This document shows, one piece after another, positions 8,750 through 29,949 of a DNA stretch of 64,000 bases. The position numbers were made by a program, and so were the translations under genes. Below the pieces are notes generated by a model. It did not search any database, had not been told where the DNA came from, and saw nothing but the letters and a program-made list of their open reading frames with translations. Every line of letters starts with the position of its first letter. Position 1 is the first letter of the stretch. Origin of the DNA: Thalassovita aquimarina (GTDB lineage: Bacteria > Pseudomonadota > Alphaproteobacteria > Rhodobacterales > Rhodobacteraceae); contig NZ_JADMKU010000003.1 of NCBI RefSeq assembly GCF_018219815.1, positions 1-64,000 on the forward strand, in the 5' to 3' direction.

Positions 8750-8785
8750 ATAGAATTATTGCATGATCGTATGTGGATCGGGCAT
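8750..8785. promoter_or_regulatory. Tandem AT-N11-AT boxes upstream of the ABC transporter operon
   Basis: On the plus strand ATAGAATTATTGCAT (8750-8764) is followed six bases later by ATGTGGATCGGGCAT (8771-8785). Both have the AT-N11-AT form and their starts are 21 bases apart, the same arrangement as in front of the other operons of this island. The operon is on the minus strand; the resemblance to the other sites is best in the plus orientation, so the pair is inverted relative to the gene. I infer a LysR-type binding site. Confidence 0.6.
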
Positions 8786-8812
8786 CGTGAAGATTTGCGA
8801 TCTAACCACGAT

Positions 8813-8841
8813 GGGCCCGGCCACGCAAGGGCGGCCGGGCC
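8813..8841 (-). terminator. GC-rich hairpin after the epimerase gene
   Basis: GGCCCGGCC near 8814-8822 pairs with GGCCGGGCC at 8833-8841, a nine-base-pair stem 27 bases past the epimerase stop at 8869. On the minus strand no clear T-run follows, so termination may be weak. It separates the epimerase gene from the promoter region of the ABC operon. Confidence 0.5.
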
Positions 8842-8868
8842 TTTAAAAACAAGGGTCAGGCGGGCGGT

Positions 8869-9744
8869 TTAGCGCGCGCGCCAGGAAAATTCCGGTTCGT
8901 AGCCCAGCACGCGGCGGGCCTTTTCGATCGACAGAAGCGTTTGGTGCGGCTCCAATTCGCCATTGACGGGAACGTCAGGGTAAACTTCAGCCATCAGTTC
9001 TGCGCTGGTCTTCTCCATCACGGTATCAGCATTCGCGATGATGAAGTTGTCAGCCCCCACGAAATCGACATGCAAGGCCTTGCGCACGGCTTGGGCGCAG
9101 TCGCGCGCGTCGATATAGCCCCAAAGGTTCCACTGGCGGAAATTCAGATCGTCCTGGAAAGTGGGGAAGCGATCATAATCGCCAGGTTCCATCACGTTGG
9201 ACAGGCGCAAGCCGATGAAGGTGGTGTCGGGATTCCAGCGCTGCATCTGGCGGGCCATTTCCTCACCCAGGTCCTTGGACAGCGAATAGGCGCTTTCAGG
9301 CCGCATCGGGTGATCCTCGTCCACAGGCGCGTAGGCAGGCGGATTTTCAGGGCTAAACGGCAGCCCCAGCGTAGTCTCGCTCGAGGCCCAGAGGATTCGC
9401 TTGACGCCGACGCGCAGGGCGGCGTCGAACACGTTGTAGGTGCTGACCATGTTATTACGGAAGGTCACATCTTCGGGCAGCAGGTCGGGCGCGGGGATGG
9501 CGGCAAAATGCACGACCGCGTCGGGAGTGCTGAATTCGCGGAACGGGTGGTCTTTGCCGCCGGTCCACTGCAGCGCGTCCATCACCTGCCCACGGTCATT
9601 CAGGTCGACCTTGTAGAACGGGCATACCGGATCCGACGACGGCTGAATGTCGATGTTGAGAACCTTGTAACCCTGCTCGACCAGGTGCCGGCACACGGCA
9701 CGGCCGGCTTTCCCGCTCCCGCCGGTAACAACGATGTTCTTCAT
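8869..9744 (-). CDS. NAD-dependent epimerase/dehydratase family protein
   Basis: This 291-residue protein is an extended short-chain dehydrogenase of the nucleotide-sugar epimerase and uronate dehydrogenase group. The NAD-binding motif TGGSGKAG is at residues 7-14, and the catalytic set is Ser121/Ser122, Tyr153 and Lys157 in YSLSK. The size fits an uronate or aldose dehydrogenase or an epimerase. The start at 9744 has AGGAGACTAAC upstream. It is transcribed alone toward the ABC operon and divergently from the 381-residue unknown protein; paired LysR-type boxes lie in the divergent gap. The substrate is inferred to be a sugar or sugar acid brought in by the neighbouring importer. Confidence 0.85.
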   Translation of the reverse strand: MKNIVVTGGSGKAGRAVCRHLVEQGYKVLNIDIQPSSDPVCPFYKVDLNDRGQVMDALQWTGGKDHPFREFSTPDAVVHFAAIPAPDLLPEDVTFRNNMVSTYNVFDAALRVGVKRILWASSETTLGLPFSPENPPAYAPVDEDHPMRPESAYSLSKDLGEEMARQMQRWNPDTTFIGLRLSNVMEPGDYDRFPTFQDDLNFRQWNLWGYIDARDCAQAVRKALHVDFVGADNFIIANADTVMEKTSAELMAEVYPDVPVNGELEPHQTLLSIEKARRVLGYEPEFSWRAR

Positions 9745-9836
9745 GTTAGTCTCCTGTTATTCGCGGACGCCATTTTCGATTTCCGCATGAGCGGCGGCGC
9801 ACAAGTTTGTATCAGATTATGCCTTTCGGGGCCCGA

Positions 9837-9879
9837 ATGCCGAATGCCGATTCTGAAACACACGATGTTTTCTCGGCAT
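9837..9879. promoter_or_regulatory. AT-N11-AT boxes in the divergent epimerase/unknown-protein promoter
   Basis: Read toward the epimerase (minus strand), ATGCCGAGAAAACAT (9879-9865) is followed six bases on by TTTCAGAATCGGCAT (9858-9844), with one changed end base. A third, overlapping box ATCGGCATTCGGCAT occupies 9851-9837. The first two have the 21-base period shared with the other operons. The inner edges are 100 bases from the epimerase start and 68 bases from the divergent gene start, so one site could serve both. Confidence 0.6.
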
Positions 9880-9946
9880 TGGCCGGGCGGCACGGCTTCC
9901 CCTACCCTGCCAGTAACGACAGCCAGCCCGGATCGAAAGCGCCGCG

Positions 9947-11092
9947 ATGACACGGCATAGCATGTATCTTTACCCTTGGGACCTACGCGATGAAGGCGCC
10001 CAGATCGTGGCCGATCGCCTACGGGCGGCGGGAATCGACAGCATTACACTGGCCACAAGCTATCACTCGGGTAAATTCCTCCGGCCACACTCGCCCAAGG
10101 GCAAGGTCTATTTCCCAGAGGCTGGCACAGTCTATTTCCCCCCCAACGCGGCGCGCTATGGCCGCCTTGCATCGCAGCGCGCGCAGTTGGCCGAAAGTTA
10201 CGATGCGCTGCACGAACTGGCCTGTCATGCCCCCGACCTGAAAGTGACCGCCTGGACGGTTGGGCTGCACAATTCGCGCTTAGGTAAGGCGAACCCGGAA
10301 TTGACCGCGCAGACCGTTTACGGCGACCCGCTGATCAATTCGCTATGCCCGGCGCAGCCTGAAGTTCAACATTACCTCATCGCGCTCTGCGCAGATACGG
10401 CAGCGCAAGAGGGAGTGCGGGAAATCGCGCTCGAAACCCCCGGCTGGCAGGCCTTCCGACACGGCCATCACCACGAATTCGAACTGATCGAACTACACAA
10501 TGCGGTGCAGACCATGCTCGGCACCTGTTTTTGCCCGGCCTGCCGCAAGGGCGTCGGCGAACACGGGCTGGACATGGGGCGGCTGGCCCAAGACACCGTT
10601 ACGCAACTCGACCGTTTCTTCGCCACCGGGGCGGTTCCCGGTACCGACCCGGCGACCGATCCCGACTGGCAGGCGCTGCACGAATGGCGCGCCGGAGTCG
10701 TGGCCGATCTGGTGGCCGAAATCCGCGCCACCCTGCCAAACGCCGTGAAACTGGCGGTGATCCCCACCACTCAGACCCCCAACAGCCTGTGCTGGATCGA
10801 AGGCAGTGACCTTTCCCGTCTCGCCGCTGCAGCTGACCGGCTGGAACTGCCCGCCTACCAATGCGGTGTGGAAGCTATCGAAAATGACGCCGCCGAAGCG
10901 CGCAATGCTGCTGGCGCAGAGGCCGATCTCGGCTTCATCCTGCGCCCAACCTTCCCCCACTTGACCGACGCGGCAGACGTCGCGCGGGCCGTTCAGGCCC
11001 TGCGCAGGCTCAACCCCGCGTCGGTCTCTTTTTACAACTACGGCCATTTCCGCCTGCAGTCTCTGGACTGGATCGCGGCTGCCCTGGCCTGA
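9947..11092 (+). CDS. Conserved-looking protein of unknown function, possibly a TIM-barrel hydrolase
   Basis: I do not recognise this 381-residue soluble protein. It has no signal peptide or membrane segment. It starts with MYLYPWDLRDEGAQIVADRLRAAGIDSITLA, a beta-strand/helix pattern typical of TIM barrels, and near residue 190 has CFCPACRKG, a C-x-C-x2-C cluster that could bind metal. Similar cysteine patterns occur in some putative glycoside hydrolases, but that is a loose resemblance. The segment ALETPGWQAF.HGHHHEFEL is rich in histidine and acid residues and may be an active site. It is the first gene of a three-gene unit with an SDR (17 bases on) and a PLP enzyme. The ATG at 9947 has a poor ribosome site; the ATG at 9962 is possible. 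Confidence 0.8.
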   Translation: MTRHSMYLYPWDLRDEGAQIVADRLRAAGIDSITLATSYHSGKFLRPHSPKGKVYFPEAGTVYFPPNAARYGRLASQRAQLAESYDALHELACHAPDLKVTAWTVGLHNSRLGKANPELTAQTVYGDPLINSLCPAQPEVQHYLIALCADTAAQEGVREIALETPGWQAFRHGHHHEFELIELHNAVQTMLGTCFCPACRKGVGEHGLDMGRLAQDTVTQLDRFFATGAVPGTDPATDPDWQALHEWRAGVVADLVAEIRATLPNAVKLAVIPTTQTPNSLCWIEGSDLSRLAAAADRLELPAYQCGVEAIENDAAEARNAAGAEADLGFILRPTFPHLTDAADVARAVQALRRLNPASVSFYNYGHFRLQSLDWIAAALA

Positions 11093-11109
11093 GGACGAAA
11101 GGAGCCCCA

Positions 11110-11907
11110 ATGCCCGACCACTCTAACACCGTGGCGCTTGTCACCGGCGCCGGGCACGGCATCGGCCGAGCCATTGCGATGCGCCTGGCACAGGAGGGCG
11201 CCACCGTCTGCGTGCTGGATATCAACGGCGAACAGGCCGAGGACACCGCCCGCCTGCTGCGCGAGGCCGGGCACAAGGCGGCGTGCAAAACCGCGGACAT
11301 CACCGATTTCGGCGCCGTTGAACGCGCCGTGGCCGAAACCGAGGCCGAACTGGGGCCGATCGGCCTGTTGGTGAACAACGCGGGTTTCACCGATGCCGGC
11401 GATCTGGACGGGATCGCGCTGACCGACTGGCACCGCGAAGTCGACGTGAACCTCAACGGCCCCTACCACTGCCTGCGCGCCATCCTGCCCGGGATGAAGG
11501 CCCGCGGCGGCGGGGTGGTGGTGAACATCTCGTCGGTGAACGGCGTGCGTTTCTTCGGCAATCCCGCCTACAGCGCGGCAAAGGCCGGGGTGATCAACCT
11601 CACCCAGTCGGTCGCGTCGGAATACGGCAAGCATGGCATCCGCTGCAATGCGGTGCTGCCCGGTTCGGTGCGGACCGAAAACGCATCCTGGGAAATCCGC
11701 ATCAAGAAGGACCCCGACGTTTTCAACAAGCTGGCGCGCTGGTACCCGATGGGTCGCGTGGCCGAACCCGAAGACGTGGCCAAGGCCGTGTCGTTCCTGG
11801 CCTCCGATGATGCCAAGTATATCACCGGCGCCGCACTGCCCGTCGATGGCGGCCTGCTGGCCGGTATGAATGTCATGATCGAAGAATTCATCCTGGAGTC
11901 GCAATAA
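11110..11907 (+). CDS. Short-chain dehydrogenase/reductase (SDR)
   Basis: This 265-residue classical SDR has the cofactor motif TGAGHGIG at residues 12-19, VNNAG at 88-92, and the catalytic Ser141/Ser142, Tyr154 and Lys158 (YSAAK). The C-terminal DGGLLAGM stretch is usual for the family. An AAAGGAG site stands in front of the start at 11110, 17 bases after the preceding gene, so the two are surely one operon. It probably oxidises a secondary alcohol of the imported compound, but the sequence alone does not name the substrate. Confidence 0.9.
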   Translation: MPDHSNTVALVTGAGHGIGRAIAMRLAQEGATVCVLDINGEQAEDTARLLREAGHKAACKTADITDFGAVERAVAETEAELGPIGLLVNNAGFTDAGDLDGIALTDWHREVDVNLNGPYHCLRAILPGMKARGGGVVVNISSVNGVRFFGNPAYSAAKAGVINLTQSVASEYGKHGIRCNAVLPGSVRTENASWEIRIKKDPDVFNKLARWYPMGRVAEPEDVAKAVSFLASDDAKYITGAALPVDGGLLAGMNVMIEEFILESQ

Positions 11908-12026
11908 GATCTCCGCACTGTTTCAGGCCGCGCCCGGCTGTGGGGCACAGCCGTTTCAACCCCGTCTCGGCGCCGCGCGGAACGCGCCCCACGGCGGCGA
12001 ATACAACACCTGTAAGGGCTACCATA

Positions 12027-13178
12027 ATGACCCCGAAAACACTCTACGACCTGCCCACCCCGAGCCTCGTTCTCGATCGTGCGAAACTGGCGCGCAACCT
12101 GCGCCGCATGGCCGATGCCTGCGCCCGCAACGGTGTCGCCCTGCGCCCGCATCTGAAAACCGCCAAGTCGATCGACGTGGCACGCATGGTTTTGAATGAC
12201 GAAACGCAGGGCATTGCCGTTTCAACCCTGTGCGAGGCCGAATATTTCGCCAGCCATGGCATCCGTGACATCCAGTATGCCGTCTGTATCACCCCCGACA
12301 AGCTGGAACGCGTGGCCGCCATCCAGGCTGGTGGCGCCAAGGTGGCGCTGATTACCGATAACGCGGGGGTCGCCCGCGCCATCGCGGACGCGAACGGGCG
12401 GATCGACACCACCTTCTATGTCCAGATCGAAATCGACTGCGGCGAAAACCGCACCGGGGTCCTGCCCGACTCTGACCAGGTGACGGAAATCGCCCGCATC
12501 CTGGATGCCGCGCCGAATGTGGATTTCGACGGGGTGATGACCCATGCGGGCCATTCCTATGGCTGCCGGTCGCTGGAAGAGATCGAAGCGCTGGCCGAGA
12601 CCGAGCGCCTCGCCGCCGTCACCGCGGCCGAAGCGGTGCGCGCGGCCGGGATCGACTGCCGCACCGTCAGCATCGGGTCCACCCCCACCGCGCTGCATGC
12701 CCGCCACCTTGATGGCGTCACCGAGGCGCGCGCCGGAGTTTACATGTTCGGCGACGTGTTCCAGGCGCAGATCCTGTCCTGCACGCTCGACGATCTGGCG
12801 ATATCGGTGCTGACCGACGTGTCCAGCCACCGCCCGGACCTCAACCACCTGACGGTGGACGCAGGCGCGCTGGCCCTGTCCAAGGACCGCAGCACCGAAA
12901 ACGTGTCCAACGACGTTGGCTTCGGCCTGGTGGGCGATATCGCGGGCAAGATCGTCGCGCCGCAGTTGATCGTCACGCGGGTCTATCAGGAACACGGCCT
13001 CGTGCCGATGTGCGAAGGCCAGCGGCTGGAGGATTATCCCATCGGCCGCCGCCTGCGGATCTATCCCAACCATGTCTGCATGACGGTGGCGATGTATGAC
13101 CGCTATTACGTCGTGGACAGCGACGAAGGCAACGGCACCGACATCGTTGCCGTCTGGTCGCGCGTGAACGGCTGGTAA
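12027..13178 (+). CDS. D-threonine aldolase / D-serine dehydratase-like PLP enzyme
   Basis: This 383-residue protein is a fold-type III PLP enzyme of the D-threonine aldolase/DSD1 family. The PLP lysine is expected at Lys43 or Lys44 in RPHLKTAKS. The C-terminal metal motif is NHVC with His349 and Cys351, the His-x-Cys pair known from eukaryotic D-serine dehydratases, rather than the His-x-Asp of BhcC. The start at 12027 (MTPKTLYDLPTPSL) is chosen because the family begins there; the in-frame ATG at 11940 would add 29 unlikely residues. It is the last gene of the unit and is followed by a strong terminator. It may cleave or dehydrate a D-3-hydroxy-amino acid; aldolase versus dehydratase cannot be settled here. 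Confidence 0.87.
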   Translation: MTPKTLYDLPTPSLVLDRAKLARNLRRMADACARNGVALRPHLKTAKSIDVARMVLNDETQGIAVSTLCEAEYFASHGIRDIQYAVCITPDKLERVAAIQAGGAKVALITDNAGVARAIADANGRIDTTFYVQIEIDCGENRTGVLPDSDQVTEIARILDAAPNVDFDGVMTHAGHSYGCRSLEEIEALAETERLAAVTAAEAVRAAGIDCRTVSIGSTPTALHARHLDGVTEARAGVYMFGDVFQAQILSCTLDDLAISVLTDVSSHRPDLNHLTVDAGALALSKDRSTENVSNDVGFGLVGDIAGKIVAPQLIVTRVYQEHGLVPMCEGQRLEDYPIGRRLRIYPNHVCMTVAMYDRYYVVDSDEGNGTDIVAVWSRVNGW

Positions 13179-13256: not shown

Positions 13257-14528
13257 TCAGCGCAGCAGCGCCGGCAGGGTCGAGGTCAGTTCCGGGATCA
13301 GCACCAGCAGCACCACGACCCCCAGTTCCACCAGCAGGAAGGGCAACACCGCGCGGAAGATCGGCATCACCGGGCTGTCGGCGATGCGGCAGGCGACGAA
13401 CAGGCACACCCCCACGGGCGGCGTGATCAACCCCAGCGTCAGCGTCAGGATCACCACCATGCCCAGCTGCATGGGGTCGATCCCCATCGAGGCCGTCACC
13501 GGCATCAGCATGGGCACGATCAGCACGATCGCGGCGCCCGGCTCCAGGAACGTACCGACCAGCAGCAGCACCGCCGCCAGTGCCATCAGGAACAGGGTCG
13601 GGTTTCCCGCGAACTGCGCTGCAAAGGACTGCACCATCATGCCGATCCCGCCGATGGTCAGCACGTAAGACACCACCGTCGCCGCAGCGATGATCAGGTA
13701 AATGGTCGCGGTGATACGCGCCGCGCGCTTCAGCGACTCCCACAGGCTGGGCCAGTCCATCGTGCGGAAGACCAGCCAGGACACAGCCAGCGCATAGAGA
13801 ACGGCCACGCCCCCAGCCTCGGTCGCGGTGAACACGCCCATGAGCGTCCCGCCCACGATCAGCGCCGGCAGCCCCATCACCAGCAGGCCGTCGCGGATCA
13901 TCACCATGATCTCGTGCCGCTCCACCCGGTGCTGCGACCGCGGCAGCCGGTCGCCGCGCGCCTGCAGGAAAATCACCAGCCACATCGCGCCTGCCAGCAT
14001 CAGCCCCGGCACGATGCCCGCCACGAAGAGGTCGATCACCGACAGCCGCGTCACCGCGGCATAGATGATCATGATGACCGAAGGCGGGATGATCGGGCCG
14101 ATGATCGACGACGCGATGGTGACCGCAGCGGCGTAATTCTTGTCATAGCCCTCTTTCGGCATGCCCTTGATAAAGACCTGCCCAAGCGCCGCCGTGTCGG
14201 CCACCGCCGCGCCCGAGATGCCGGCGAACAGCACCGAGGACGACACATTGGCATAGGCCGTGCCGCCCGGCACCCCGCGGGTGATCAGGCCGGCCAGACG
14301 GATCAGCCGCTCGGTAATGCCGCCGCGGTTCATGATCTCGCCCGCGAGGATGTAAAAAGGAGCCGCCAGCAGCACGAAATTGTCCATGCCGGTAAACAGA
14401 CGCGTGGGCACCGTGATCAGGTCCAGGTCCAGCGCATACAGACCCACTGCCCCGGCGATGCCCAGGGCAAAGACGATGGGCACCCCGATCGCCAGCGTCA
14501 CCACGAATGCAATGGCCATCGCGATCAT
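13257..14528 (-). CDS. dctM: TRAP transporter large permease (DctM)
   Basis: This 423-residue polytopic protein is the large membrane subunit of a tripartite ATP-independent periplasmic transporter, which uses the sodium gradient to import organic acids and related solutes. It has about twelve hydrophobic segments and DctM family blocks such as IPPSVIMIIYA, GTFLEPGAAIVLIVP and LGLITPPVGVCLF. The start at 14528 overlaps the stop of the small permease as ATGA, which signals coupling. A longer in-frame reading into the dctQ region exists but runs antisense to family expectations. Gene order on the minus strand is dctP, dctQ, dctM. Confidence 0.95.
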   Translation of the reverse strand: MIAMAIAFVVTLAIGVPIVFALGIAGAVGLYALDLDLITVPTRLFTGMDNFVLLAAPFYILAGEIMNRGGITERLIRLAGLITRGVPGGTAYANVSSSVLFAGISGAAVADTAALGQVFIKGMPKEGYDKNYAAAVTIASSIIGPIIPPSVIMIIYAAVTRLSVIDLFVAGIVPGLMLAGAMWLVIFLQARGDRLPRSQHRVERHEIMVMIRDGLLVMGLPALIVGGTLMGVFTATEAGGVAVLYALAVSWLVFRTMDWPSLWESLKRAARITATIYLIIAAATVVSYVLTIGGIGMMVQSFAAQFAGNPTLFLMALAAVLLLVGTFLEPGAAIVLIVPMLMPVTASMGIDPMQLGMVVILTLTLGLITPPVGVCLFVACRIADSPVMPIFRAVLPFLLVELGVVVLLVLIPELTSTLPALLR

Positions 14529-15031
14529 GGCGCGCCCTCCCCGTCTTCCAGCTGTGCCAGCGCCTCGGCGGGCAGCAGCATCATGCAAAGCGTGTTGATC
14601 AGGACCAGCACCGCGCCGACCGGGATCGCCATATAGGGAATGGTCATCGGGATACGCACCGCAGGGGAAACCTGCCGCATGTTGTCGATCGCGGCCGGGA
14701 AACCCTTCACGATCAGCAGCACGCAGAAACCTGCCACGCACAGATGCACCAGCTGCCCCACCAACCGGCGCAGCCGTTCCGAACGGACGCTGTCGAACAG
14801 GCTGACCTCCATATGCTCGCGTCGCAAAAGCGCGGGCGCGGCGGCCAGCATCACCATCCAGGTGGTGGTGTAGCGCATGGTTTCTTCCGACCACGAGATC
14901 GGGTCGACCAGAACATAACGGAAAAACACCTGCGCCAGGTTCATCGCGATCACCGCGATCAGCAGGATCGCAGCCACCGTTTCCGTCCCCCTGGCGAGGA
15001 TCAGCGCCCATCTTAATAGCGTGCCCTGCAC
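14525..15031 (-). CDS. dctQ: TRAP transporter small permease (DctQ)
   Basis: This 168-residue protein with four membrane segments is the small subunit of the TRAP transporter. The family hallmark WSEETMRYTTTWMVMLAAA is present. I chose a GTG start at 15031 because TAGGAGG stands seven bases in front of it; an ATG at 15112 would add a glycine- and proline-rich tail not seen in DctQ proteins. It overlaps dctM by four bases. A ten-base-pair hairpin lies in the 104-base gap to dctP. Confidence 0.92.
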   Translation of the reverse strand: MQGTLLRWALILARGTETVAAILLIAVIAMNLAQVFFRYVLVDPISWSEETMRYTTTWMVMLAAAPALLRREHMEVSLFDSVRSERLRRLVGQLVHLCVAGFCVLLIVKGFPAAIDNMRQVSPAVRIPMTIPYMAIPVGAVLVLINTLCMMLLPAEALAQLEDGEGAP

Positions 15032-15085
15032 GTTCCTGCCTCCTACCCTATTGCCGCCCCCCGGCCCTGCGGCCGGAAGGCGAAC

Positions 15086-15110
15086 GGGAAGCGCCATGCA
15101 GGCGCTTCCC
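15086..15110 (-). promoter_or_regulatory. Perfect hairpin between dctP and dctQ
   Basis: GGGAAGCGCC (15086-15095), loop ATGCA, GGCGCTTCCC (15101-15110) form a perfect ten-base-pair stem between dctP and dctQ. On the minus strand no T-run follows, so it is more likely an RNA-stabilising or attenuating element than a full terminator. Such hairpins are common between binding-protein and permease genes. Confidence 0.65.
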
Positions 15111-15135
15111 ATCCCTAGCTATGCCTGTTCAGGTC

Positions 15136-16167
15136 TTATTTGCCATACAGCGTCGGTTCGTAGGAAGCTGCCGTCTCCAGCAGATCCGCCACCAGCTCGG
15201 CACCGACCTGCTCGCGCAGGTATTCCAGCACCGGCTCCTGCGAAACTTCGGCAAAGGCGGCCTTCTCTGCCATCGAGGTCATGTGGATTTCGACGCCCTT
15301 TTCCTTGATCAGGTCGATGTATTTCTTGGCACCAGCCAACTTCTGAGTGTTCTCGATGCGCGAGGCCAGCAGCGCCGCCTCCATCACGATCGCCTTCTGA
15401 TCGTCGGTCAGCTTGTCGAAAAACTTGTCCGAGATGATGTAGGCGTGGACACCCAGGATATGCTCGTCGGTGGACATGTATTTTTGCACGTCCATCAGGT
15501 TGTAGTCATAGTTCACCTGGGCGGGGTTTTCCTGACCGTCGATCACCCCCTGCTTGGCGGCCATGATAATCTCGGAACCCGGCATCGGGGTTGCGGCGGC
15601 GCCGAAGGATTCGACGAAGCGCATGAAGACCGGGCTTTCCATGACGCGCATCTTGAGGCCCTTGAGGTCCTCGGGGCTGCGGATCGGGCGCACGTTGTTG
15701 GTGAAGTCGCGGAAGCCGTTTTCACCCCAGGCCATCACGCGGATGCCGGTCTCGGTGCGCATGTCCTCGGCCAGGTTGGCGAAGAACGGGCTGTCGAACA
15801 CTTTCCAGGCATGGGCCGACGACTTGAACAGGTAAGGGATCGAGAGCACCTGGATGTCGTTGTAGAACCCGGCCAGCGCACCGGTGTCCACCAGGCAGAC
15901 CTCGACCGTGCCCTGCTGCACCTGCTCGGCGCAGGCGCGTTCCGCGCCCAGTTGGGCACTGGGGAACAGCTGGACGGTGATTTCGCCCTCGGTCTTGTAT
16001 TCAACATGGTTCTTGAACGCCACCAACGCGTTCCATTCCGGGTTGTCACCTTGCGGCGCATTCATCCCGAACTTGATGGTTTCGGCCATTGCCGGCGCCG
16101 CGGCAAACAGAGCGGCAGTCGCGGCGGCAGCGATGAATTTGGCGAGTGGTTTCTTGGTCTTTTTCAT
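15136..16167 (-). CDS. dctP: TRAP transporter solute-binding protein (DctP)
   Basis: This 343-residue periplasmic protein is the receptor of the TRAP system. A signal peptide of 28 residues ends AAAPAMAE. The conserved motif region GLKMRVMESPVFMRFVESFGAAATPMPGSE contains the arginine that usually binds a substrate carboxylate (Arg in KMRVM), and GVIDGQENP follows. This suggests an organic acid ligand. The start at 16167 has AGGGAGACT upstream. It is the first gene of the TRAP operon and is preceded by paired LysR-type boxes at 16243-16278. Confidence 0.94.
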   Translation of the reverse strand: MKKTKKPLAKFIAAAATAALFAAAPAMAETIKFGMNAPQGDNPEWNALVAFKNHVEYKTEGEITVQLFPSAQLGAERACAEQVQQGTVEVCLVDTGALAGFYNDIQVLSIPYLFKSSAHAWKVFDSPFFANLAEDMRTETGIRVMAWGENGFRDFTNNVRPIRSPEDLKGLKMRVMESPVFMRFVESFGAAATPMPGSEIIMAAKQGVIDGQENPAQVNYDYNLMDVQKYMSTDEHILGVHAYIISDKFFDKLTDDQKAIVMEAALLASRIENTQKLAGAKKYIDLIKEKGVEIHMTSMAEKAAFAEVSQEPVLEYLREQVGAELVADLLETAASYEPTLYGK

Positions 16168-16242
16168 TCTAAGTAGTCTCCCTGTTGGGTGCGGAGAATT
16201 AGTCGCAAGCCAAAGACTACGAGCGCTCCTTGATCAAACGAA

Positions 16243-22415: not shown

Positions 22416-23198
22416 ATGGGTTTTCCCGATTTTTTCCGTCTCGACGGGAAAAAATTATTCATAACCGGCGGCAGCCGGGGATTGGGGCGCGAAATGGCGC
22501 TGGCCATCGCCTCGGCCGGAGCCGACGTGGCACTTGCCGCGCGCCCCTCCGACAGTCTGCAACAGACGGCCGAGGATATTCGCGCGCTCGGCCGCTCGGC
22601 CTGGACCATCGAGGCCGACATCGGCGATCCAACCGCATGCGAGGCCGCCTGCACCAAAGCGCTTGCCGAAATCGGCCCATTCGACATTCTGATCAACAAT
22701 GTCGGCGGTCGTCGCGTGAACATACCCACCGAAGAAATGCCGCTGGAGCAGTGGCATGAGTTGATGGACCTGAACCTGACCGCCACTTTCCTGTGCTGTA
22801 AGGCGATCGGCGGCGCGATGATCAAACGCGGCAGCGGCGGGCGGATTATCAATATTGCCTCGATCAACGCCCTGGTCGCAGGGCGCGGCATTGCAGGCCG
22901 GCATTACGAGACCGCCAAGGCGGGCGTGCTGCAACTAACCCGCAGCCTAGCCGTGGATTGGGCGCCGCATGGCATCACCGTCAACGCGATCTGCCCCGGT
23001 ATCTTCCTGACTGAGCCCAACAAAATCTGGTCGCAGAAACACCCTGAGGTCATTGAGGGCATCCTCGACAACATCCCGCAGGGTCGCTTAGGCGATCCCG
23101 AGGATATCGGCCCGCTTGCCGTCTACCTGGCCAGCGACAGCGCAAATTACATGACCGGCGCCTCACTAGTCATCGATGGCGGCTACACCTGCTGGTGA
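22416..23198 (+). CDS. Short-chain dehydrogenase/reductase (SDR)
   Basis: This 260-residue SDR has the motif TGGSRGLG at residues 17-24, INNVGG at 93-98 and catalytic Ser149, Tyr164 and Lys168 (YETAK). It resembles gluconate 5-dehydrogenases in general form, but the substrate is not fixed by sequence. A purine-rich GGGGG site precedes the start. It leads a six-gene unit with the dipeptide-type ABC transporter, 76 bases before the binding-protein gene, so the oxidised compound may be what that transporter brings in. Confidence 0.88.
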   Translation: MGFPDFFRLDGKKLFITGGSRGLGREMALAIASAGADVALAARPSDSLQQTAEDIRALGRSAWTIEADIGDPTACEAACTKALAEIGPFDILINNVGGRRVNIPTEEMPLEQWHELMDLNLTATFLCCKAIGGAMIKRGSGGRIINIASINALVAGRGIAGRHYETAKAGVLQLTRSLAVDWAPHGITVNAICPGIFLTEPNKIWSQKHPEVIEGILDNIPQGRLGDPEDIGPLAVYLASDSANYMTGASLVIDGGYTCW

Positions 23199-23274
23199 CA
23201 AGCAGGGCCCCGCCTCTCCCGAGGCATCAAGAACGAGCAGCATCCTCCACCTCAATCCGGAAAGGCAGTCTACC

Positions 23275-24822
23275 ATGCGAAACTCACTAAGAAACCTGCT
23301 GAGCGGCGCGGCCCTCGCGCTGCTGGCAGGTTTGGCCCCGATCACCGGCGCCAGCGCCGAGACCCTGCGCTACGCCACCATCGGCGAGCCGCCCAGTCTC
23401 GACGTGCACATGGGCACAGCGACCATCGCCGCGACCATCGGCCAGCATATGTTCGAAACGCTCTACGCCTTCGATTCCACTTATGAGCCGCAACCGCTTC
23501 TGGCCAGCGGTGAGATGCTGGCGGATGACGGCCGCACCATCGTGATGACACTGCGCCAGGGCGTGAAATTCCACAACGGCAAGGAATTGACCGCCGAGGA
23601 TGTTGTCGCCTCACTGCAACGCTGGGGCGAATATGGCGCGCGCGGCAAGCTGCTGATGGCAAATGCCACATCTGTGGAGGCCACCGGCCCCTACGAGGTC
23701 ACCCTGAAACTGTCCGAACCGAACGGCGCGTGGAAATCCATGCTGGCCTTCCCGAACGGCGGCCCGGTGATCTACCCGTCCGAGATCGTGACCGCCGCCG
23801 GCGGTGACCCGATCAAGCCCGAGAACTATGTCGGCACCGGCCCGTTCATGTTCAAGGAATGGCGCGGCAACCGCCATGTCGAGCTGGTGAAATTCGACGA
23901 CTATGTAGGAGTGGACGCCCCCGCCGACGGCTATGCCGGCGCCCGAACGGCCGAGGTCGATGCGATCCGCTTTATCCCCGTCCCTGACGTTGGCACCCGC
24001 GTCAGCGGCGTACAGGCAGGCGACTACGACTATGCCGAGTTCATCTCGGGCGACCTCTATGGCGTGCTCAAGGATGATGCCTCGGTCAAGATCCACCTCA
24101 GCGGCGCACCGATCTTCGGCCTGATGTTCATGAACTCCAAGGAAGGCCCGCTGGCCGACAACTTCGAACTGCGCCGCGCCATCCATACCGCGCTTAACAA
24201 GGAAGAGGCGCTACGCGTCTCGGTCGGCGAAGAGGCGCTGTGGAAGGCCAATGGCTCGTTCTACCCCGAAGGCAATATCTGGTACACCGAAGCAGGGACC
24301 GAGGCCTACTCGGTCGGCGATCCGGAAAAGGCCAAGGCGATGGCCGAGGCCGCCGGCTATGACGGCACGCCGATCAAGTTACTGGTGTCGACCAACTACA
24401 AGACCCATTACGACCAAGCGACTGTGTTCACCCGTCAACTGGCCGATGCGGGCATCAACGTTCAGATGGTAGTGGTCGACTGGGCCACGCTGCTGAAAAA
24501 GCGCGCCCAGCCCGATCAGTGGGACATGTTCGTGACCCATCATGGCAACATCCCCGACCCGATCCTACTGACCGCGCTGAACGACAGCTACCCCGGCTGG
24601 TGGGTGACCCCCGAAAAGGCGGCGCTGAAGGCTAAGTTCACCGGCACCTCGGATCTGGATGTCCGCCGCGAGGCCTGGTCGGAGCTTCAAGCGCTGATGT
24701 ATGAGCAGGTCCCCACCATCAAGGTCGGCGACGTATATTCGTACAACATCGCTTCTCCGTCTCTGAAGGGTTTGGGCGCGACCACACTGATCTGGCCGCA
24801 TTTCTGGGGCATCTCCAAGTGA
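23275..24822 (+). CDS. ABC transporter substrate-binding protein, dipeptide/oligopeptide family 5
   Basis: This 515-residue periplasmic binding protein belongs to family 5 (DppA/OppA/GsiB). A signal peptide of about 28 residues ends TGASAE. The mature part has usual landmarks: GEPPSLDVHMGTATIAATIGQHMFETLYAFD, QGVKFHNGKELTAEDVVASLQRW and PYVGTGPFMFKEW-like segments. The start at 23275 is chosen for the signal peptide; upstream in-frame codons overlap the SDR. Members bind peptides, opines, glutathione, nickel complexes or sugar derivatives, so the ligand is open. It is followed 25 bases later by the permease genes. Confidence 0.92.
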   Translation: MRNSLRNLLSGAALALLAGLAPITGASAETLRYATIGEPPSLDVHMGTATIAATIGQHMFETLYAFDSTYEPQPLLASGEMLADDGRTIVMTLRQGVKFHNGKELTAEDVVASLQRWGEYGARGKLLMANATSVEATGPYEVTLKLSEPNGAWKSMLAFPNGGPVIYPSEIVTAAGGDPIKPENYVGTGPFMFKEWRGNRHVELVKFDDYVGVDAPADGYAGARTAEVDAIRFIPVPDVGTRVSGVQAGDYDYAEFISGDLYGVLKDDASVKIHLSGAPIFGLMFMNSKEGPLADNFELRRAIHTALNKEEALRVSVGEEALWKANGSFYPEGNIWYTEAGTEAYSVGDPEKAKAMAEAAGYDGTPIKLLVSTNYKTHYDQATVFTRQLADAGINVQMVVVDWATLLKKRAQPDQWDMFVTHHGNIPDPILLTALNDSYPGWWVTPEKAALKAKFTGTSDLDVRREAWSELQALMYEQVPTIKVGDVYSYNIASPSLKGLGATTLIWPHFWGISK

Positions 24823-24847
24823 TCTCTAACGAAAGGACCAAGCTGTA

Positions 24848-25795
24848 ATGCTTGCTTATGTCCTGAAGAGGACCGGCGCGGCCATCGCCACTTTGGTGGC
24901 CGCGTCGATTGTCATCTTCATTTTTATCCATCTTATTCCGGGCGACCCGATCTACGTCATGCTCGGGGACGAAGCCACGCCCGAACAGGTCGAAGCGCTA
25001 CGCATTCGCATGGGTTTCGACCAACCTCTCTACGTTCAGTATTTCTACTGGGCCGGCAACGTGCTGCGGGGCGACCTCGGCACCTCGATCTTCTTTCAGG
25101 AACCGGTGACGCTGATCATCCGAGACGGCGCCGAGACCAGCCTGCTTCTGGCCTGCGTCACCATGGTCTGGATCGTGGCCCTGGGCGTGCCGGTGGGCGT
25201 GCTGGCGGCGATCCGCCAGGGAACCTGGGTCGATCAGGGGCTCTCGGGCATCGCCATGCTGCTGGCCTCGATCCCGACATTCTGGGTGGGCCTCTACCTG
25301 ATCCTGATCTTCGCCGCCAATCTCGGCTGGCTGCCCAGCTCCGGCTACCCCTCGATCTTTGAGGATGGTGAACTGTCGAACCTGCGCTACCTGCTGCTGC
25401 CCAGCCTGACGCTCGCCGCGCCCAACGCGGCGCTGATCCTGCGGCTGACGCGGGCCAGCATGCTCGACGTCGCGAAAGAGGATTACGTGCGCACCGCGCG
25501 TTCCAAGGGAATTCGCCCCTACCGCGTCGTCCTCCGTCACATCCTGCGCAATGCGCTCTTGGCGGTGGTGTCGGCCTTCGGCTTCACATTCGCCGCGCTG
25601 ATCTCCGAGGCCGTTGTCACCGAAACCGTCTTCGCCCTGCCCGGTATCGGCCGGATGGTGGTGCAGTCGATCCTGCGCCGCGACTATCCGGTGATCCAGG
25701 GCGTCATCCTCGTCATCGTCTGCCTCTACCTTGTGATCAACCTACTGGTGGACATCTCCTATCGTTTCCTCGACCCCAGGGTGGACCTCGAATGA
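24848..25795 (+). CDS. Dipeptide-type ABC transporter permease (DppB-like)
   Basis: This 315-residue inner-membrane protein is the first permease. It has the DppB N-terminal feature VIFIFIHLIPGDPI and the EAA loop YVRTARSKGIRPYRVVLRH. About six membrane segments are present. It overlaps the second permease gene by four bases (ATGA), showing translational coupling. It works with the three neighbouring gene products as one importer. Confidence 0.95.
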   Translation: MLAYVLKRTGAAIATLVAASIVIFIFIHLIPGDPIYVMLGDEATPEQVEALRIRMGFDQPLYVQYFYWAGNVLRGDLGTSIFFQEPVTLIIRDGAETSLLLACVTMVWIVALGVPVGVLAAIRQGTWVDQGLSGIAMLLASIPTFWVGLYLILIFAANLGWLPSSGYPSIFEDGELSNLRYLLLPSLTLAAPNAALILRLTRASMLDVAKEDYVRTARSKGIRPYRVVLRHILRNALLAVVSAFGFTFAALISEAVVTETVFALPGIGRMVVQSILRRDYPVIQGVILVIVCLYLVINLLVDISYRFLDPRVDLE

Positions 25796-26655
25796 CTACG
25801 AAACTCCGTTCATTCCTGTCGGTCTTTACCGCGCGCCCGATCGCGCTGCTGGGGCTGGTCTACCTCGTGACGATCCTCGTCTTCGCTCTAGGGGCCAATC
25901 TGATCGCCCCCTACGCGCCCGAAGATATCGAGCCGGTCAATCGCCTGAGCCCACCGAGCTGGGGCCACTGGTTCGGCACCGACCATTTCGGCCGCGACAC
26001 GTTCAGCCGGGTTCTACATGGCTCGCGCCTAGCACTGCTGATCGGAGTGGGCGTGGTCAGCTTTGCGCTAGCGACTGGCGTGCCGATCGGCATCATCTCG
26101 GCTCTCTTCCCTCGCATAGGCCGCGTGCTGATGCGGATGGTCGACGTGATGATGGCCTTCCCTTCGCTGCTGCTGGCGCTGGGTCTGATCGTGATCCTCG
26201 GCCAAAGCGTGGCAAACGCCATCCTCGCCATCGGGGTGATCTACCTGACCACCACGGCGCGGATCACCTATGGCGTCACCTTGCGCCTGCGAGAAGAGAC
26301 TTACGTCGAGGCCGCCCGCTCGATGGGCGCCAGCACCTTATGGATGATCCGCAGGCATATCCTGCCAAACATGATCTCGCCGCTGCTCGTACAGGCAAGC
26401 TTCGTTTTCGCTTTCGCTCAGCTCGGCGCGGCCTCGCTGGATTTCCTTGGTCTCGGCGCCCCGCCCGAGATTCCCAGTTGGGGCAACATGCTGGCAGAAT
26501 CCCGCATCTACATTACCCGTGCGCCGTGGCTGCTGTTCTATCCCGGTCTCATGATCGTGCTGACCGCGTTCTCGCTGAACTTAGTGGGCGACGTGCTGCG
26601 CGACCAGTTGGACCCGCGGTTCCGCGAGATGCTCGGCAACAAACAGAGGAGATAA
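25792..26655 (+). CDS. Dipeptide-type ABC transporter permease (DppC-like)
   Basis: This 287-residue inner-membrane protein is the second permease. The DppC landmark HWFGTDHFGRDTFSRVLHGSR is near residues 60-80, and the EAA loop is YVEAARSMGASTLWMIRRHI. It has about six membrane segments. It is coupled to DppB at its start and is followed four bases later by the first ATPase gene. Confidence 0.95.
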   Translation: MTTKLRSFLSVFTARPIALLGLVYLVTILVFALGANLIAPYAPEDIEPVNRLSPPSWGHWFGTDHFGRDTFSRVLHGSRLALLIGVGVVSFALATGVPIGIISALFPRIGRVLMRMVDVMMAFPSLLLALGLIVILGQSVANAILAIGVIYLTTTARITYGVTLRLREETYVEAARSMGASTLWMIRRHILPNMISPLLVQASFVFAFAQLGAASLDFLGLGAPPEIPSWGNMLAESRIYITRAPWLLFYPGLMIVLTAFSLNLVGDVLRDQLDPRFREMLGNKQRR

Positions 26656-26658
26656 TCC

Positions 26659-27630
26659 GTGCTTACGGTCAAAAACCTGGTGGTGGCCGCCGGCCACCCC
26701 TCGACTAAGCTGGACATTGTCTCGGACGTGTCTTTCGAAATCAATCGCGGCGAAGTTCTGGGATTGGTGGGCGAATCCGGCAGCGGCAAGAGCATCACCT
26801 CGCTCGCGGTGATGGGATTGCTGCCGCATCCGCAGCTATGGGTACGCTCAGGAGCAATCGAGCTCGACGGTGCCGACATCACCGAGGAACCACCGCATCT
26901 GCGCGTCGAGCGCGGTCATGGCGGCGTCTCGATGATCTTCCAGGAGCCGATGACCTCACTCAACCCTGTGCTGCGCATCGGCGAGCAAATCGAAGAGGCC
27001 GTGCGCGTGCATGACGGCTCCACTGGTGAGATCGCCCGCAAACGCGCCCGCGAACTGCTGGAGATGGTGCGCATTCCCGACGCGCAACTGCAGCTCAATG
27101 CCTACCCACACGAATTGTCAGGCGGTATGCGCCAGCGGGTGATGATCGCGATTGCACTGGCCTGCCGTCCACAAATCCTGATCGCGGACGAACCGACCAC
27201 CGCTCTCGATGTGACCGTGCAGATGCAGGTGCTCAGCTTGATCCGCGAGCTTTGCGACGCCTTCGACATGGGCGTGCTGTTTATCACCCATGACCTCGGC
27301 GTCGTGTCGGAACTCGCCGACCGGGTGACGGTGATGTATGGCGGAAGAATCGCTGAAACCGGCCCTGTGGGCGAACTGTTCCACAATCCTTTGCACCCCT
27401 ACACGGGCGGATTGATGGGTTGCGTACCCGATCCCGCCGCTGGACATCGCCGGTTCCGGACCATCCCCGGGCAGGCCCCGAAGCCGGGAGAGGTTCCACA
27501 GGGCTGCAAATTCGCCCCTCGTTGTGACCATGCGCAGCCCGTCTGCCGCGCGGGCGCCGTACCGGCTGTCGCCGCGGGAGCGAACCACGCCGCCCATTGC
27601 CATTTCCCGCTGTCCCAGGAGGCGTTATGA
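26659..27630 (+). CDS. Dipeptide-type ABC transporter ATP-binding protein (DppD-like)
   Basis: This 323-residue protein is one of two ATPases of the importer. Walker A is GESGSGKS at residues 38-45, the signature is LSGGMRQRV and Walker B is ILIADEPTT. The C-terminal oligopeptide-transporter domain has the cysteine cluster [16 protein letters not shown]. It starts at a GTG (26659) with AGAGGAGAT in front. It overlaps the next ATPase gene. Confidence 0.95.
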
Positions 27631-28592
27631 CCAAGCATGAAACCATCCTAGAGCTGCACAACTTGCGCAAAACCTTCACTGCCCGTCGCGCCGGTAAGAG
27701 TTACGAGATCAAGGCGGTCAATGACGTCTCGTTCGATGTGCGCCGGGGCGAAGTGCTGGGTATCGTCGGCGAGACCGGTTGTGGCAAAACCACGATCGGG
27801 CGCACCATCATCCGGCTGACCGGTGCCGATAGCGGCGAAGCGTTGCTCAACGGGTCCGACATCTTCACCGAGAATCGCCGCCGGATGCGAGATATGCGGC
27901 TCAAGGTAAGAATGGTGTTCCAGGACCCCTACGCCTCGCTCAACCCGCGTCGCTCCATCGGCGACTCTGTGGCCGAGACCGGCGATATCCACGGCGTCTT
28001 CAAAAATCGTCAGGAACGCGCCGATCTGGTGGCGCAAACCCTAACCCAGGTCGGGCTCAACCCGTCCTTCGCGGAACGCTTCCCGCACCAACTGAGCGGC
28101 GGCCAGCGCCAGCGCGTGGGCATTGCCCGTGCCCTGCTACCCACACCCGAGCTGATCATCGCGGACGAACCCGTTTCAGCGCTGGACGTGTCGGTGCAGG
28201 CGCAGGTGCTGAACCTTCTAACTGACCTGAAGGAGGAGATGGGCCTGACCATGCTGTTCATCTCCCACGACCTCGGTGTGGTCGCGCAGATCAGCGACCG
28301 GGTGGCGGTAATGTATATGGGAAACCTGGTGGAGATGGCCGATGGTGACGGCCTGTTCGCAGATCCGCGCCACCCCTACACCCAGCTCCTGATCGCTTCG
28401 GTCCCGCGGCTCGACGCAACCAAGCGCATATCTGGCGGCATCGAAAAGGGGGAGCCGCCTAGCCGGTTCACGCAGCTTCAGGGCTGTCCCTTCCACGATC
28501 GCTGCCCCATTGCAACCGATCTGTGCCGGGTCGAACGACCGCTACTGCGTGAACTCGAAGGTGGCCGCAAGGTGGCCTGCCACAACGCCTGA
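27627..28592 (+). CDS. Dipeptide-type ABC transporter ATP-binding protein (DppF-like)
   Basis: This 321-residue protein is the second ATPase. Walker A is GETGCGKT at residues 48-55, the signature LSGGQRQRV, Walker B LIIADEPVS, and the C-terminal cysteine cluster GCPFHDRCPIATDLC. The start at 27627 overlaps the DppD stop as ATGA and has CCAGGAGG upstream; the in-frame codon at 27597 is less likely. It completes the five-subunit importer. Confidence 0.95.
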   Translation: MTKHETILELHNLRKTFTARRAGKSYEIKAVNDVSFDVRRGEVLGIVGETGCGKTTIGRTIIRLTGADSGEALLNGSDIFTENRRRMRDMRLKVRMVFQDPYASLNPRRSIGDSVAETGDIHGVFKNRQERADLVAQTLTQVGLNPSFAERFPHQLSGGQRQRVGIARALLPTPELIIADEPVSALDVSVQAQVLNLLTDLKEEMGLTMLFISHDLGVVAQISDRVAVMYMGNLVEMADGDGLFADPRHPYTQLLIASVPRLDATKRISGGIEKGEPPSRFTQLQGCPFHDRCPIATDLCRVERPLLRELEGGRKVACHNA

Positions 28593-28602
28593 AACGGAAA
28601 GC

Positions 28603-28620
28603 CCCGGCCGGTGGGCCGGG
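28603..28620. terminator. Hairpin between convergent genes
   Basis: CCCGGCC (28603-28609) pairs with GGCCGGG (28614-28620) in the 55-base gap between the convergent dppF and amidohydrolase genes. No long T-run follows on either strand, although the minus strand reads GGCTTTCC after the stem. It may act as a weak bidirectional terminator. Confidence 0.45.
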
Positions 28621-28647
28621 ACCGTCGCGACGCTTCTCAGCGCAAGA

Positions 28648-29793
28648 TCACTTTTCCGGGGCGTCCTGCCACCACTGGCCACCGATGACAATACCACGGT
28701 GTTCTAGGTAGCTATCGGCGGTGATGGTCTCGCCCACCGCATCGGTATGGGTGATGCTGCCGCTGGTCTCGGTCAGGATCGTGGCGTCACCTGCTGCGCC
28801 AACCTTCAACGTACCGATATCGTCTCGCCGAAGCGCGCGCGCGGGGTTCTGCGTCGTCGCCGCGATCACCTCGGTCAGGCTCATCCCAAGTGCCATGAAT
28901 TTCGACATCACCGCCAGTACGTCATAGGCCGGCCCGTCGACGCAGATCACGTGCACGTCGCTGCTAAGTACGTCGGGCCTGATCCCCTCGGCAAGCATTG
29001 CCCGCCCCGAGCGGAAGCCGAAGCCGCCATACCCGTGACCAATGTCGAATATGATGCCACGCTCGCGCGCCTCAAGGATCTCCTGCCGGATCGAACAATC
29101 GCCATGGATCGGCGCGTTCGGGAACGGCCGGAAGCAATGAGTTAGAATATCGCCGGGGCGCAGGATGCCTAGCACCTCCTCGCGGGTTGGCGGCGGATTG
29201 TCGATATGCGCCATCACCGGCAAGCCCAGTTCGTCAGCAACTTCGATTGCCAACGCCAGCGGCGCCAGCCCTGAATTGCCCCCGGCCTTGGCCCCTACGC
29301 GGGCCTTCATGCCTACGATGATATCCTGGTTCTCGCGAGCCACGCGCAGGCATTCGCGTGCGTCGAGCAGCCGCAGGTCTTCGCATTCGCCGACCATCAC
29401 AGTCTTAGAAAAAGCGAAAATCCCGGGGAAGGAGATGTTCATGTAGGCAAGGATGCGCGGGTCTGCGAGCTCGATCACGTGCTTGCGGAAGCCCGCCAGA
29501 TTACCAGCACCCGCGCTACCAGCATCAACGAAGGTTGTGGTGCCGCTGCGCCGAGCGATCGTCTCCGCATCCACCCCCAGCGAGGTACCTCCCCAATAGA
29601 CATGGGTGTGAAGGTCGATCAGGCCGGGGCTGACAATCTTGCCCGCCACATCACGCACCTCGCGGGCCTGCGACGGATCGATCCCGGCCTCGACCCCAGC
29701 CACCCTGCCATCGGCAAAGGCCACATCGAACTCGCCATCCATATTTTGCGACGGATCGATCACCCGGCCGCCCTTTAGGAGAAGGTCAAACAT
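28648..29793 (-). CDS. Metal-dependent amidohydrolase/deacetylase
   Basis: This 381-residue protein is an amidohydrolase-superfamily enzyme of the dihydroorotase/D-aminoacylase-like branch, close in style to the Atu3266/EF_0837 group of deacetylases. Metal ligands are His62 and His64 (DLHTH), the likely carboxylated Lys163 (GMKARVG), His196 (AHIDNPP), His219 (THCF) and Asp279 (SSDVH). These make a binuclear metal site for hydrolysis of an amide, cyclic amide or ester. It has no signal peptide. It ends convergent with the dipeptide-type importer and its own promoter carries the paired LysR-type boxes. Its job may be to deacylate or open the ring of an imported compound. Confidence 0.88.
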   Translation of the reverse strand: MFDLLLKGGRVIDPSQNMDGEFDVAFADGRVAGVEAGIDPSQAREVRDVAGKIVSPGLIDLHTHVYWGGTSLGVDAETIARRSGTTTFVDAGSAGAGNLAGFRKHVIELADPRILAYMNISFPGIFAFSKTVMVGECEDLRLLDARECLRVARENQDIIVGMKARVGAKAGGNSGLAPLALAIEVADELGLPVMAHIDNPPPTREEVLGILRPGDILTHCFRPFPNAPIHGDCSIRQEILEARERGIIFDIGHGYGGFGFRSGRAMLAEGIRPDVLSSDVHVICVDGPAYDVLAVMSKFMALGMSLTEVIAATTQNPARALRRDDIGTLKVGAAGDATILTETSGSITHTDAVGETITADSYLEHRGIVIGGQWWQDAPEK

Positions 29794-29913
29794 TTCGGTT
29801 CATCCTGTTGTTTTGGGGCCTGCCCGCATTTCCGGTTGGACTCCTGTATACCAAAGCCGCCCTAAGGGCGGAGCTCTTGTGTTCAGCGAAAACCATTCAC
29901 TGCGAAACTGCCA

Positions 29914-29949
29914 ATGCCGTATGCGGATTGATCAATGACAATTTCTCAT
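29914..29949. promoter_or_regulatory. Tandem AT-N11-AT boxes upstream of the amidohydrolase gene
   Basis: Plus strand ATGCCGTATGCGGAT (29914-29928) and, six bases on, ATGACAATTTCTCAT (29935-29949). Read toward the gene these are ATGAGAAATTGTCAT and then ATCCGCATACGGCAT, in the same order and 21-base period as at the other operons. The inner edge is 121 bases from the amidohydrolase start at 29793. Confidence 0.68.

Follow-up and report, generated by a model that had tools for sequence, protein, structure and literature searches.

LysR-type regulators are described as binding a site near position -65 together with a downstream site of non-conserved sequence (PMC4834489), and a similar two-site layout appears in PMC6628147 and PMC11602165; these and all later statements on published systems refer to excerpts of the papers cited. 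In one of the closest described systems, OxyR binds ATAG-n7-CTAT repeats centred at -66, -44 and -35, and the MetR box is the 15-mer ATGAAAATTTTTCAT (PMC5002191). Here we analyzed a 64,000-nucleotide stretch of Thalassovita aquimarina DNA (NCBI RefSeq assembly GCF_018219815.1, contig NZ_JADMKU010000003.1, positions 1 to 64,000; hereafter the window), in which seven pairs of AT-N11-AT boxes lie among transport and catabolic genes, the island, that also include a LysR-type regulator gene, lysR. The seven pairs are very probably the operators of this regulator, through which the island genes would be activated coordinately.

The operators at oxyR-oxyS resemble those of the island in that both consist of 15-bp inverted repeats, centred at -66 and -44 in the OxyR case and at inferred positions of -64 and -43 here (PMC5002191). 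Unlike the ATAG-n7-CTAT repeats, the boxes of the island have an ATGC-N7-GCAT-like form, and OxyR further differs by its redox signal; it also has a third site at -35. BenM and CatM, at benA and catB, share with this locus the T-N11-A motif, present there within ATAC-N7-GTAT, and two sites bound by a tetramer upstream of the -35 element (PMC6628147), whereas the boxes here have AT ends with GC inside, both are similarly conserved, and there are more units per regulator. In an alignment of 47 sites from eight genomes, the window sites included, the distal box carries 16.5 bits, the promoter-side box 15.5 bits, and the six-base gap between them 0.7 bits. The second box is thus conserved about as well as the first, unlike the layout described in PMC4834489. 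ThnR, the regulator of tetralin degradation, likewise governs several promoters, two of them divergent, but each of its divergent promoters has a primary site of its own (PMC4834489), whereas here one pair appears to serve both. No case of two-way activation from a single site was found in a non-exhaustive search of paper titles and of the excerpts of PMC4834489, where ThnR uses separate sites, and neither this regulon nor its gene set was named in the titles or abstract openings of the literature searched.

The pattern AT-N11-AT-N6-AT-N11-AT occurs exactly five times in the window, at 8750, 16243, 18970, 22271 and 29914, and two more pairs (9844-9879 and 17952-17987) have one mismatch each among the eight fixed A/T bases. 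A first-pass annotation of this DNA had described paired boxes with a constant six-base gap upstream of the ABC, epimerase/unknown, TRAP, M81, aldehyde dehydrogenase, SDR-dpp and amidohydrolase units. Both the gap and the placement, with one pair for each unit named, were borne out; the pair at 8750-8785, which had been called a variant, is actually exact. The pairs are listed below; loci of relatives are labelled L and genomes G.

8750 to 8785, minus strand: pair of the sugar-type ABC operon, exact; -10-like CAGACT at 8721-8726; orthologous pairs in L001, L003, L057, L053, G459, G528 and G415.
9844 to 9879, no single strand: pair between the epimerase gene (minus) and the gene of a 381-amino-acid protein (plus), one mismatch; -10-like TACCCT at 9903-9908 (plus) and TAATCT at 9814-9819 (minus).
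16243 to 16278, minus strand: pair of the TRAP transporter operon, exact; -10-like TAGTCT at 16214-16219.
17952 to 17987, minus strand: pair of the M81 gene, one mismatch; -10-like TAAGTT at 17923-17928; conserved in L001 (10653), L002 (3128) and L004 (1970).
18970 to 19005, no single strand: pair between lysR (minus) and the aldehyde dehydrogenase gene (plus), exact; -10-like GATTAT at 19029-19034 on the dehydrogenase side, TAnnnT at 38 bp on the lysR side.
22271 to 22306, plus strand: pair of the SDR-dppABCDF operon, exact; -10-like TACGCT at 22330-22335.
29914 to 29949, minus strand: pair of the amidohydrolase gene, exact; weak -10-like TTCGCT at 29885-29890.

At 17965-17987 the distal box of the M81 promoter coincides with the last lysR codons, so that an operator and the C-terminal tail of a protein are written on the same bases.

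To set the pairs against background, a first-order Markov model of the same dinucleotide make-up (20 simulations) and a 400-kb control from the same genome were used. The control comprised 20 stretches that were not random, four of them having been chosen where an earlier scan gave weak matches. The Markov model predicts 0.45 exact pairs in the window. The control contained 3 exact pairs, as against 5 in the 64-kb window, which gives a chance rate of about 7.5e-6 per position. The first-pass annotation was therefore right to exclude an accidental origin, although its quoted rate of 2.6e-6 per position is about threefold too low, which leaves the conclusion unaffected. Since exact pairs alone are unspecific, with 3 in 400 kb, they were not used for claiming regulon members, and those at L005 9045, L050 2541, L051 4098, L057 7851 and G528 local position 1866 were treated as chance. 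The preference for a gap of six was seen in window positions 4000-30100, in L001 and in L003, where it occurred between exact boxes 5, 5 and 4 times, respectively. Every other gap from -14 to 40 occurred no more than twice in each, except for a gap of -2 (overlapping exact boxes), with 4, 3 and 4 cases.

Further evidence from the sequence came from a weight matrix built from 11 sites of relatives (L001-L004) and none from the window. This matrix placed the seven window sites first, with scores of 37.9, 32.2, 31.4, 30.9, 26.3, 22.7 and 15.6. The place ranked after them, at 18949, scored 11.3 and overlaps the pair at 18970, and the next unrelated one reached 7.6. Six of the window sites scored above the maximum of the 400-kb control, which was 15.6, and the matrix and control together rule out a chance origin of the window pairs. 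In whole-genome scans, in which at most 150 preselected candidates per genome were scored, a sequence-only model of the same 11 sites gave three island sites as the three best places in the 4.33-Mb genome (E 0.0025, 0.028 and 0.028), the best place elsewhere having an E of 1.65 among the best 150 of 2635 candidates. Run on the window unfiltered, this model put the seven sites ahead of all else, two of them as partial matches, with the 8750 and 17969 matches at E 0.44 and 0.46 and the next place at 0.81. A model of 18 sites, window sites included, returned six of the seven sites from the genome, with the best place elsewhere at E 0.81. A long model, of the 47 aligned sites at 72 bases each, returned all seven at E no higher than 0.0062, and among its best 150 candidates no further regulon member was found elsewhere in the genome with E below 0.10, the best such place standing at 0.10. 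The long model also found the amidohydrolase promoter in L001's genome (G195:C21), which was outside its training sites. Scattering of the pairs across the genome had been named as grounds for refuting a regulon; when the scan was run, the three best places of the window-blind model were those of the island. By these models, the strong sites found are confined to the island.

The distance from the boxes to the promoter is also fixed. Among 33 promoter-facing sites, which span nine different units, TAnnnT begins 23 bp beyond the end of the promoter-side box in 16 and 24 bp beyond it in 5, and no other offset from 0 to 49 has more than one. With [TC]AnnnT the corresponding numbers are 21 and 5; orthologous promoters are related, so the counts are not independent. 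At the same place the aldehyde dehydrogenase sites (n=5) have GAnnAT and the amidohydrolase sites (n=2) have TTCnnT. In the held-out genomes G459, G528 and G415, 15 promoter orientations gave TAnnnT, [TC]AnnnT and NAnnnT at 23 or 24 bp in 7, 10 and 12 cases, as against at most 1, 1 and 2 elsewhere. In the 47-site alignment the second box is followed by a near-invariant T (within TnGnC), then by the -10 element, and by a slight excess of A 12 bases past the start of the -10. The TnGnC may be a weak -35 element, with the -10 lying 17 bp further on. Because the distance of 23-24 bp to the -10 is fixed and the excess A can be taken as +1, the box centres fall at about -64 and -43, where a LysR-type activator would classically be expected to sit. 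In both boxes, 91-100% of the 47 sites have complementary bases at the two outer pairs. The boxes are thus palindromes of the form AT-N11-AT, and the earlier assignment to the T-N11-A class of LysR sites holds.

The pair at 9844, between the epimerase gene and the gene of the 381-amino-acid protein, has TAnnnT at 23 or 24 bp in both directions in 8/8 genomes, and only one other TAnnnT occurs at offsets 0-49 in the 16 flanks. Since there is a -10 element on both sides, two divergent promoters appear to be driven from one site, most simply by a single tetramer that would activate in both directions. On the lysR side of the dehydrogenase pair the hexamer lies farther away, at 35 bp in L001, 38 bp in the window, L002 and L003, and 45 bp in L004. 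Because this -10-like hexamer is 35-45 bp away in all five loci, lysR would not be activated in the same way, and it is probably autorepressed or constitutive. The first-pass annotation had recorded none of three features: the constant spacing of 23-24 bp to the -10, the pair with promoters on both sides, and the bhcBCD genes behind the ABC operon, discussed below.

The LysR relatives at L001, L002, L003 and L004 are 86%, 80%, 79% and 68% identical to the window protein, and the distant L005 is 38% identical. Exact pairs were found at orthologous promoters of L001 (5), L002 (1), L003 (4) and L004 (1), and also at orthologous promoters on further contigs of these four genomes. At seven loci of the genome's own LysR paralogues there were none, and L005 had the one already mentioned as chance. 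Three further orthologue genomes, G459 (70%), G528 (68%) and G415 (54%), all lay outside models R1 and R2. In each of them the best R2 match in the whole genome was the island (E 0.24, 0.014 and 0.30, respectively), and 11 of the 12 exact pairs in the three genomes stood before orthologous units. Pairs beside orthologous loci are therefore carried by all seven other genomes found to have a LysR orthologue of at least 54% identity, although not by every unit in every genome, and a check proposed in the first-pass annotation was in this way borne out.

Such orthologues are rare. At E no higher than 1e-60 they were found in 4/195 relatives, the organism itself included and the other three only 40-45% identical, in 0/8 congeners, and, at E no higher than 1e-80, in 5/390 genomes of the order, including its own and that of L003. 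When 21 genomes were searched with the 18-site model, 5/5 with a close orthologue gave full-length island matches; in the 16 without one, the best partial match had E 0.0069 (G005) and the only full-length matches had E 3.3 and 4.2.

The regulator itself has the domains expected of the family, HTH_1 at 63.1 bits (cut-off 26.6) and LysR_substrate at 49.3 bits (cut-off 28) in Pfam. Among solved LysR-type structures it matches 5ydw over nearly its full length (E 7.4e-39), and BenM, CatM and OxyR over the N-terminal part. In its orthologues the DNA-binding domain is 75-98% identical and the effector domain 44-83%. The gene is divergent over a pair, as noticed earlier, in the window and in 7/8 genomes overall, the exception being G415. 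Binding of LysR to the pairs can be inferred on strong grounds, because the box form, the box positions and the divergent regulator all match LysR-type activators. A single-LysR regulon is accordingly what the held-out ranking, the orthologous pairs and the genome scan support. In the proposed mechanism, a LysR tetramer would lie on the distal 15-bp box (about -64, the recognition site) and the promoter-side box (about -43, the activation site), set against the weak -35, TnGnC, with the -10 17 bp further on, and with inducer bound would recruit RNA polymerase. The seven pairs would in this way serve eight starts: ABC (with bhcBCD and an SDR gene behind it), epimerase, the 381-amino-acid protein gene with its SDR and D-serine-dehydratase-like genes, TRAP, M81, aldehyde dehydrogenase-GMC, SDR-dpp and amidohydrolase, the epimerase pair serving both directions. 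If transcription starts 36 nt past the promoter-side box, the leaders are 24 to 85 nt long.

Several observations weigh against a regulon of this kind. The M81 site (15.6) is no better than the best control place and thus rests on conservation, while the other six stand out by sequence alone. On the organism's own genome, the 11-site model returned three of the seven island sites among the best 150 of 2635 candidates, and the 8750 site is missing from the own-genome matches of the 18-site model. The aldehyde dehydrogenase and amidohydrolase promoters have poor -10 elements, and on the M81 side of the pair in G415 none is present at 23 or 24 bp. Of the 16 genomes lacking a close orthologue, three have LysR homologues of 40-45% identity, and no full-length pair was found there. 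Partial matches with E 0.0018-0.07 occur in genomes without an orthologue; the strongest, in G002 (long model, E 0.0018), lies inside a reading frame and contains no exact pair, and weak long-model matches (E 0.02-0.07) were also obtained in G006, G005, G013, G007 and G011. Finally, the G415 regulator is only 54% identical and does not adjoin a pair, and the organism's own genome encodes a LysR paralogue whose DNA-binding domain, 60% identical, could in principle bind the boxes. The G415 case is as follows.

L090+L091, local positions 13277-14155: lysR orthologue of G415 with an in-frame TAA at codon 218, from recent loss or sequencing error.

The gene has been relocated away from the dehydrogenase, which retains its pair, and the other pairs are kept as well.

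The last two points would fit a reading in which the pairs were operators of another regulator, either an unlinked LysR paralogue, such as the one at C33:167783, or a protein of a different family, with the island LysR controlling only its neighbour. A genome without a close orthologue, G009, also speaks for this. Its long-model match (E 0.013, positions 1-71) is an exact pair, is the only near-full-length match with E below 0.1 among such genomes, and scores 21.6 with the 11-site matrix, above all control places. This pair (L116 2857-2892) was found post hoc. It starts 13 bp before a LysR-type gene whose product is 34% identical to that of the island, and on its other side CAGCCT stands 23 bp past the box, before a divergent open frame whose start appears to resemble pyridoxal-phosphate desulfhydrase or sulfo-lyase proteins. 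More than one LysR-type protein may therefore read this form, and G009 perhaps has a second, distant one with the same layout, although this is a single case. Against another regulator, the 3.9 kb around the own-genome paralogue contains no exact pair or high-scoring place, and the loci of the distant homologues L005 and L018-L021 (38-45%) and of the own paralogue L007 have no place above 15.8 with the 11-site matrix. With a 36-bp model, no full-length match with E below 1 was obtained in the 16 genomes without a close orthologue, while genomes with one gave strong island matches. The spacing and the box form are also those of LysR-type sites. We consider control by another regulator unlikely.

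LysR-type regulators can repress at some promoters. The pairs could accordingly be repressor operators rather than activator sites, and conservation alone does not tell the sign of control. Repression of their own genes by LysR-type regulators is on record (PMC4834489). The boxes, however, stop just before the inferred -35 and short of the -10, and the combination of a weak -35 with a constant 17 bp to the -10 is in keeping with activator dependence of the promoter, which makes repression very unlikely at these sites. An origin of the pairs as chance A/T patterns, or as remnants of similarity between copied promoters, might be suggested by the mere eight fixed bases and the shared ancestry of orthologous promoters but has a negligible probability: the held-out tests contradict it, the window exceeds the control in exact pairs and, at six sites, in score, and the boxes and the -10 recur across different units with the spacer's six columns totalling 0.7 bits.

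Activation of the island by its own LysR-type regulator thus remains the preferred interpretation. The earlier observation is confirmed: the pairs exist, are well conserved, and had been interpreted correctly in the main points. The regulon is well supported and new, and the kind of control is well known. The genes concerned, with families assigned by Pfam and NCBIfam scans, are the following.

213 to 1046, minus strand: SDR gene behind bhcD; a homologue 73% identical lies near lysR in G415.
1156 to 4362, minus strand: bhcB, bhcC and bhcD behind the ABC operon, NCBIfam matches above cut-off.
4503 to 8683, minus strand: operon of a sugar-type ABC importer, with an SBP_bac_1 binding protein, two permeases and a UgpC-like ATPase.
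8869 to 9744, minus strand: NAD-dependent epimerase/dehydratase family gene.
9947 to 13178, plus strand: genes of the 381-amino-acid protein (glycoside-hydrolase-like barrel fold), an SDR and a D-serine-dehydratase/BhcC-like protein.
13257 to 16167, minus strand: TRAP genes (DctP, a 195-amino-acid open reading frame taken as the small subunit by position, DctM).
16363 to 17892, minus strand: M81/MlrC-type hydrolase gene.
17965 to 18879, minus strand: LysR-type regulator gene, 304 amino acids (HTH_1 and LysR_substrate).
19091 to 22164, plus strand: aldehyde dehydrogenase and GMC oxidoreductase genes.
22416 to 28592, plus strand: SDR gene and dipeptide-type ABC importer operon.
28648 to 29793, minus strand: amidohydrolase/deacetylase-family gene.

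The single-sequence structure of the 381-amino-acid protein was poor, with a predicted local distance difference test (pLDDT) score of 38, and a model from five orthologues reached 75.5. Foldseek matched this moderate-confidence model to PgaB, Cwp19 and GH42 (TMq 0.50-0.58, root-mean-square deviation above 7), which suggests a glycoside-hydrolase-like barrel and nothing more specific.

To the right of the amidohydrolase unit, at 30799-32548, are an IS4/5-type transposase gene and then an HTH-cupin regulator gene (PuuR-like, below cut-off). When two regulator genes of the window, lysR and the HTH-cupin gene, were looked for in the related islands, whose annotation is partial, the LysR gene was present and no homologue of the HTH-cupin gene was found in the islands searched. 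LysR is the shared regulator of the islands with respect to these two genes. An ornithine-cyclodeaminase-type gene, 47-49% identical to the window BhcD, is present at L003 15629-16597 and L057 4696-5664 and in the islands of G459, G528 and G415. It adjoins the D-serine-dehydratase-like gene (in G415 it lies between M81 and SDR), and the corresponding place in the window lacks such a gene.

In Paracoccus denitrificans, bhcABCD is activated by the IclR-type regulator BhcR (PMC11323563). The BhcB, BhcC and BhcD families are also present here, above their NCBIfam cut-offs (585.5 against 550 bits, 773.3 against 690 and 591.5 against 500, respectively), but only as bhcBCD behind an ABC operon that bears a pair, and the window bhcB is the only copy over the cut-off in the genome. 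No terminator-like or promoter-like match was found in the 140-bp gap between the ABC operon and bhcB, and co-transcription is likely, with predicted read-through into bhcBCD. A bhcA gene over the cut-off (650 bits) was not found in the genome, where the best match has 271.6 bits, nor was a close bhcR homologue, the best match to the bhcA-adjacent IclR-type gene of G003 being 37% identical (C33:197823); this absence is not final, because the window begins at a contig end and a gene in an assembly gap is possible. In 3/12 genomes (G001, G003 and G195) bhcA is over the cut-off; in two of seven congeners tested (G001 and G003) and in L001's genome (G195) it is followed by bhcBCD and adjacent to an IclR-type gene. 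That bhcBCD is an old part of the island was not favoured, because L055 and L056 have no close bhcB after the ABC operon (best 27%, L055), whereas G195, G001 and G003 have bhcABCD beside an IclR-type gene.

Two features of the regulon are less ordinary, namely the site that faces two promoters and the bhcBCD genes that it has probably captured. Tentatively, and with slightly less than an even chance that both parts hold together, we propose that the epimerase pair would be a symmetric switch in which one tetramer serves two back-to-back promoters, the boxes swapping recognition and activation roles, and that the regulon has captured BhcB, BhcC and BhcD from BhcR. These three being the glyoxylate-to-aspartate enzymes, such a capture would link a dedicated catabolic island with a form of hydroxyaspartate assimilation that does not use BhcA. 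Aldolases resembling BhcC, with 47-48% identity to that of the window, occur in L001's genome, under a pair (L050:187), and in G528, next to the amidohydrolase gene. Their presence in regulon-linked loci tentatively suggests a pathway yielding glycine and glyoxylate, or a hydroxyaspartate-like compound. From the genes present, the island would take up and oxidise a compound related to sugars or amino acids.

In summary, the pairs define a LysR regulon at the base level, with eight promoters, one fixed geometry and natural variation, and they make it a good system for studying how recognition and activation sites are read by a LysR tetramer, and for asking if a single site can fire in two directions. 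Through them, transport and catabolic genes that had not been characterised become linked in what is probably a single pathway, and genes of the beta-hydroxyaspartate cycle have probably come under a new regulator.

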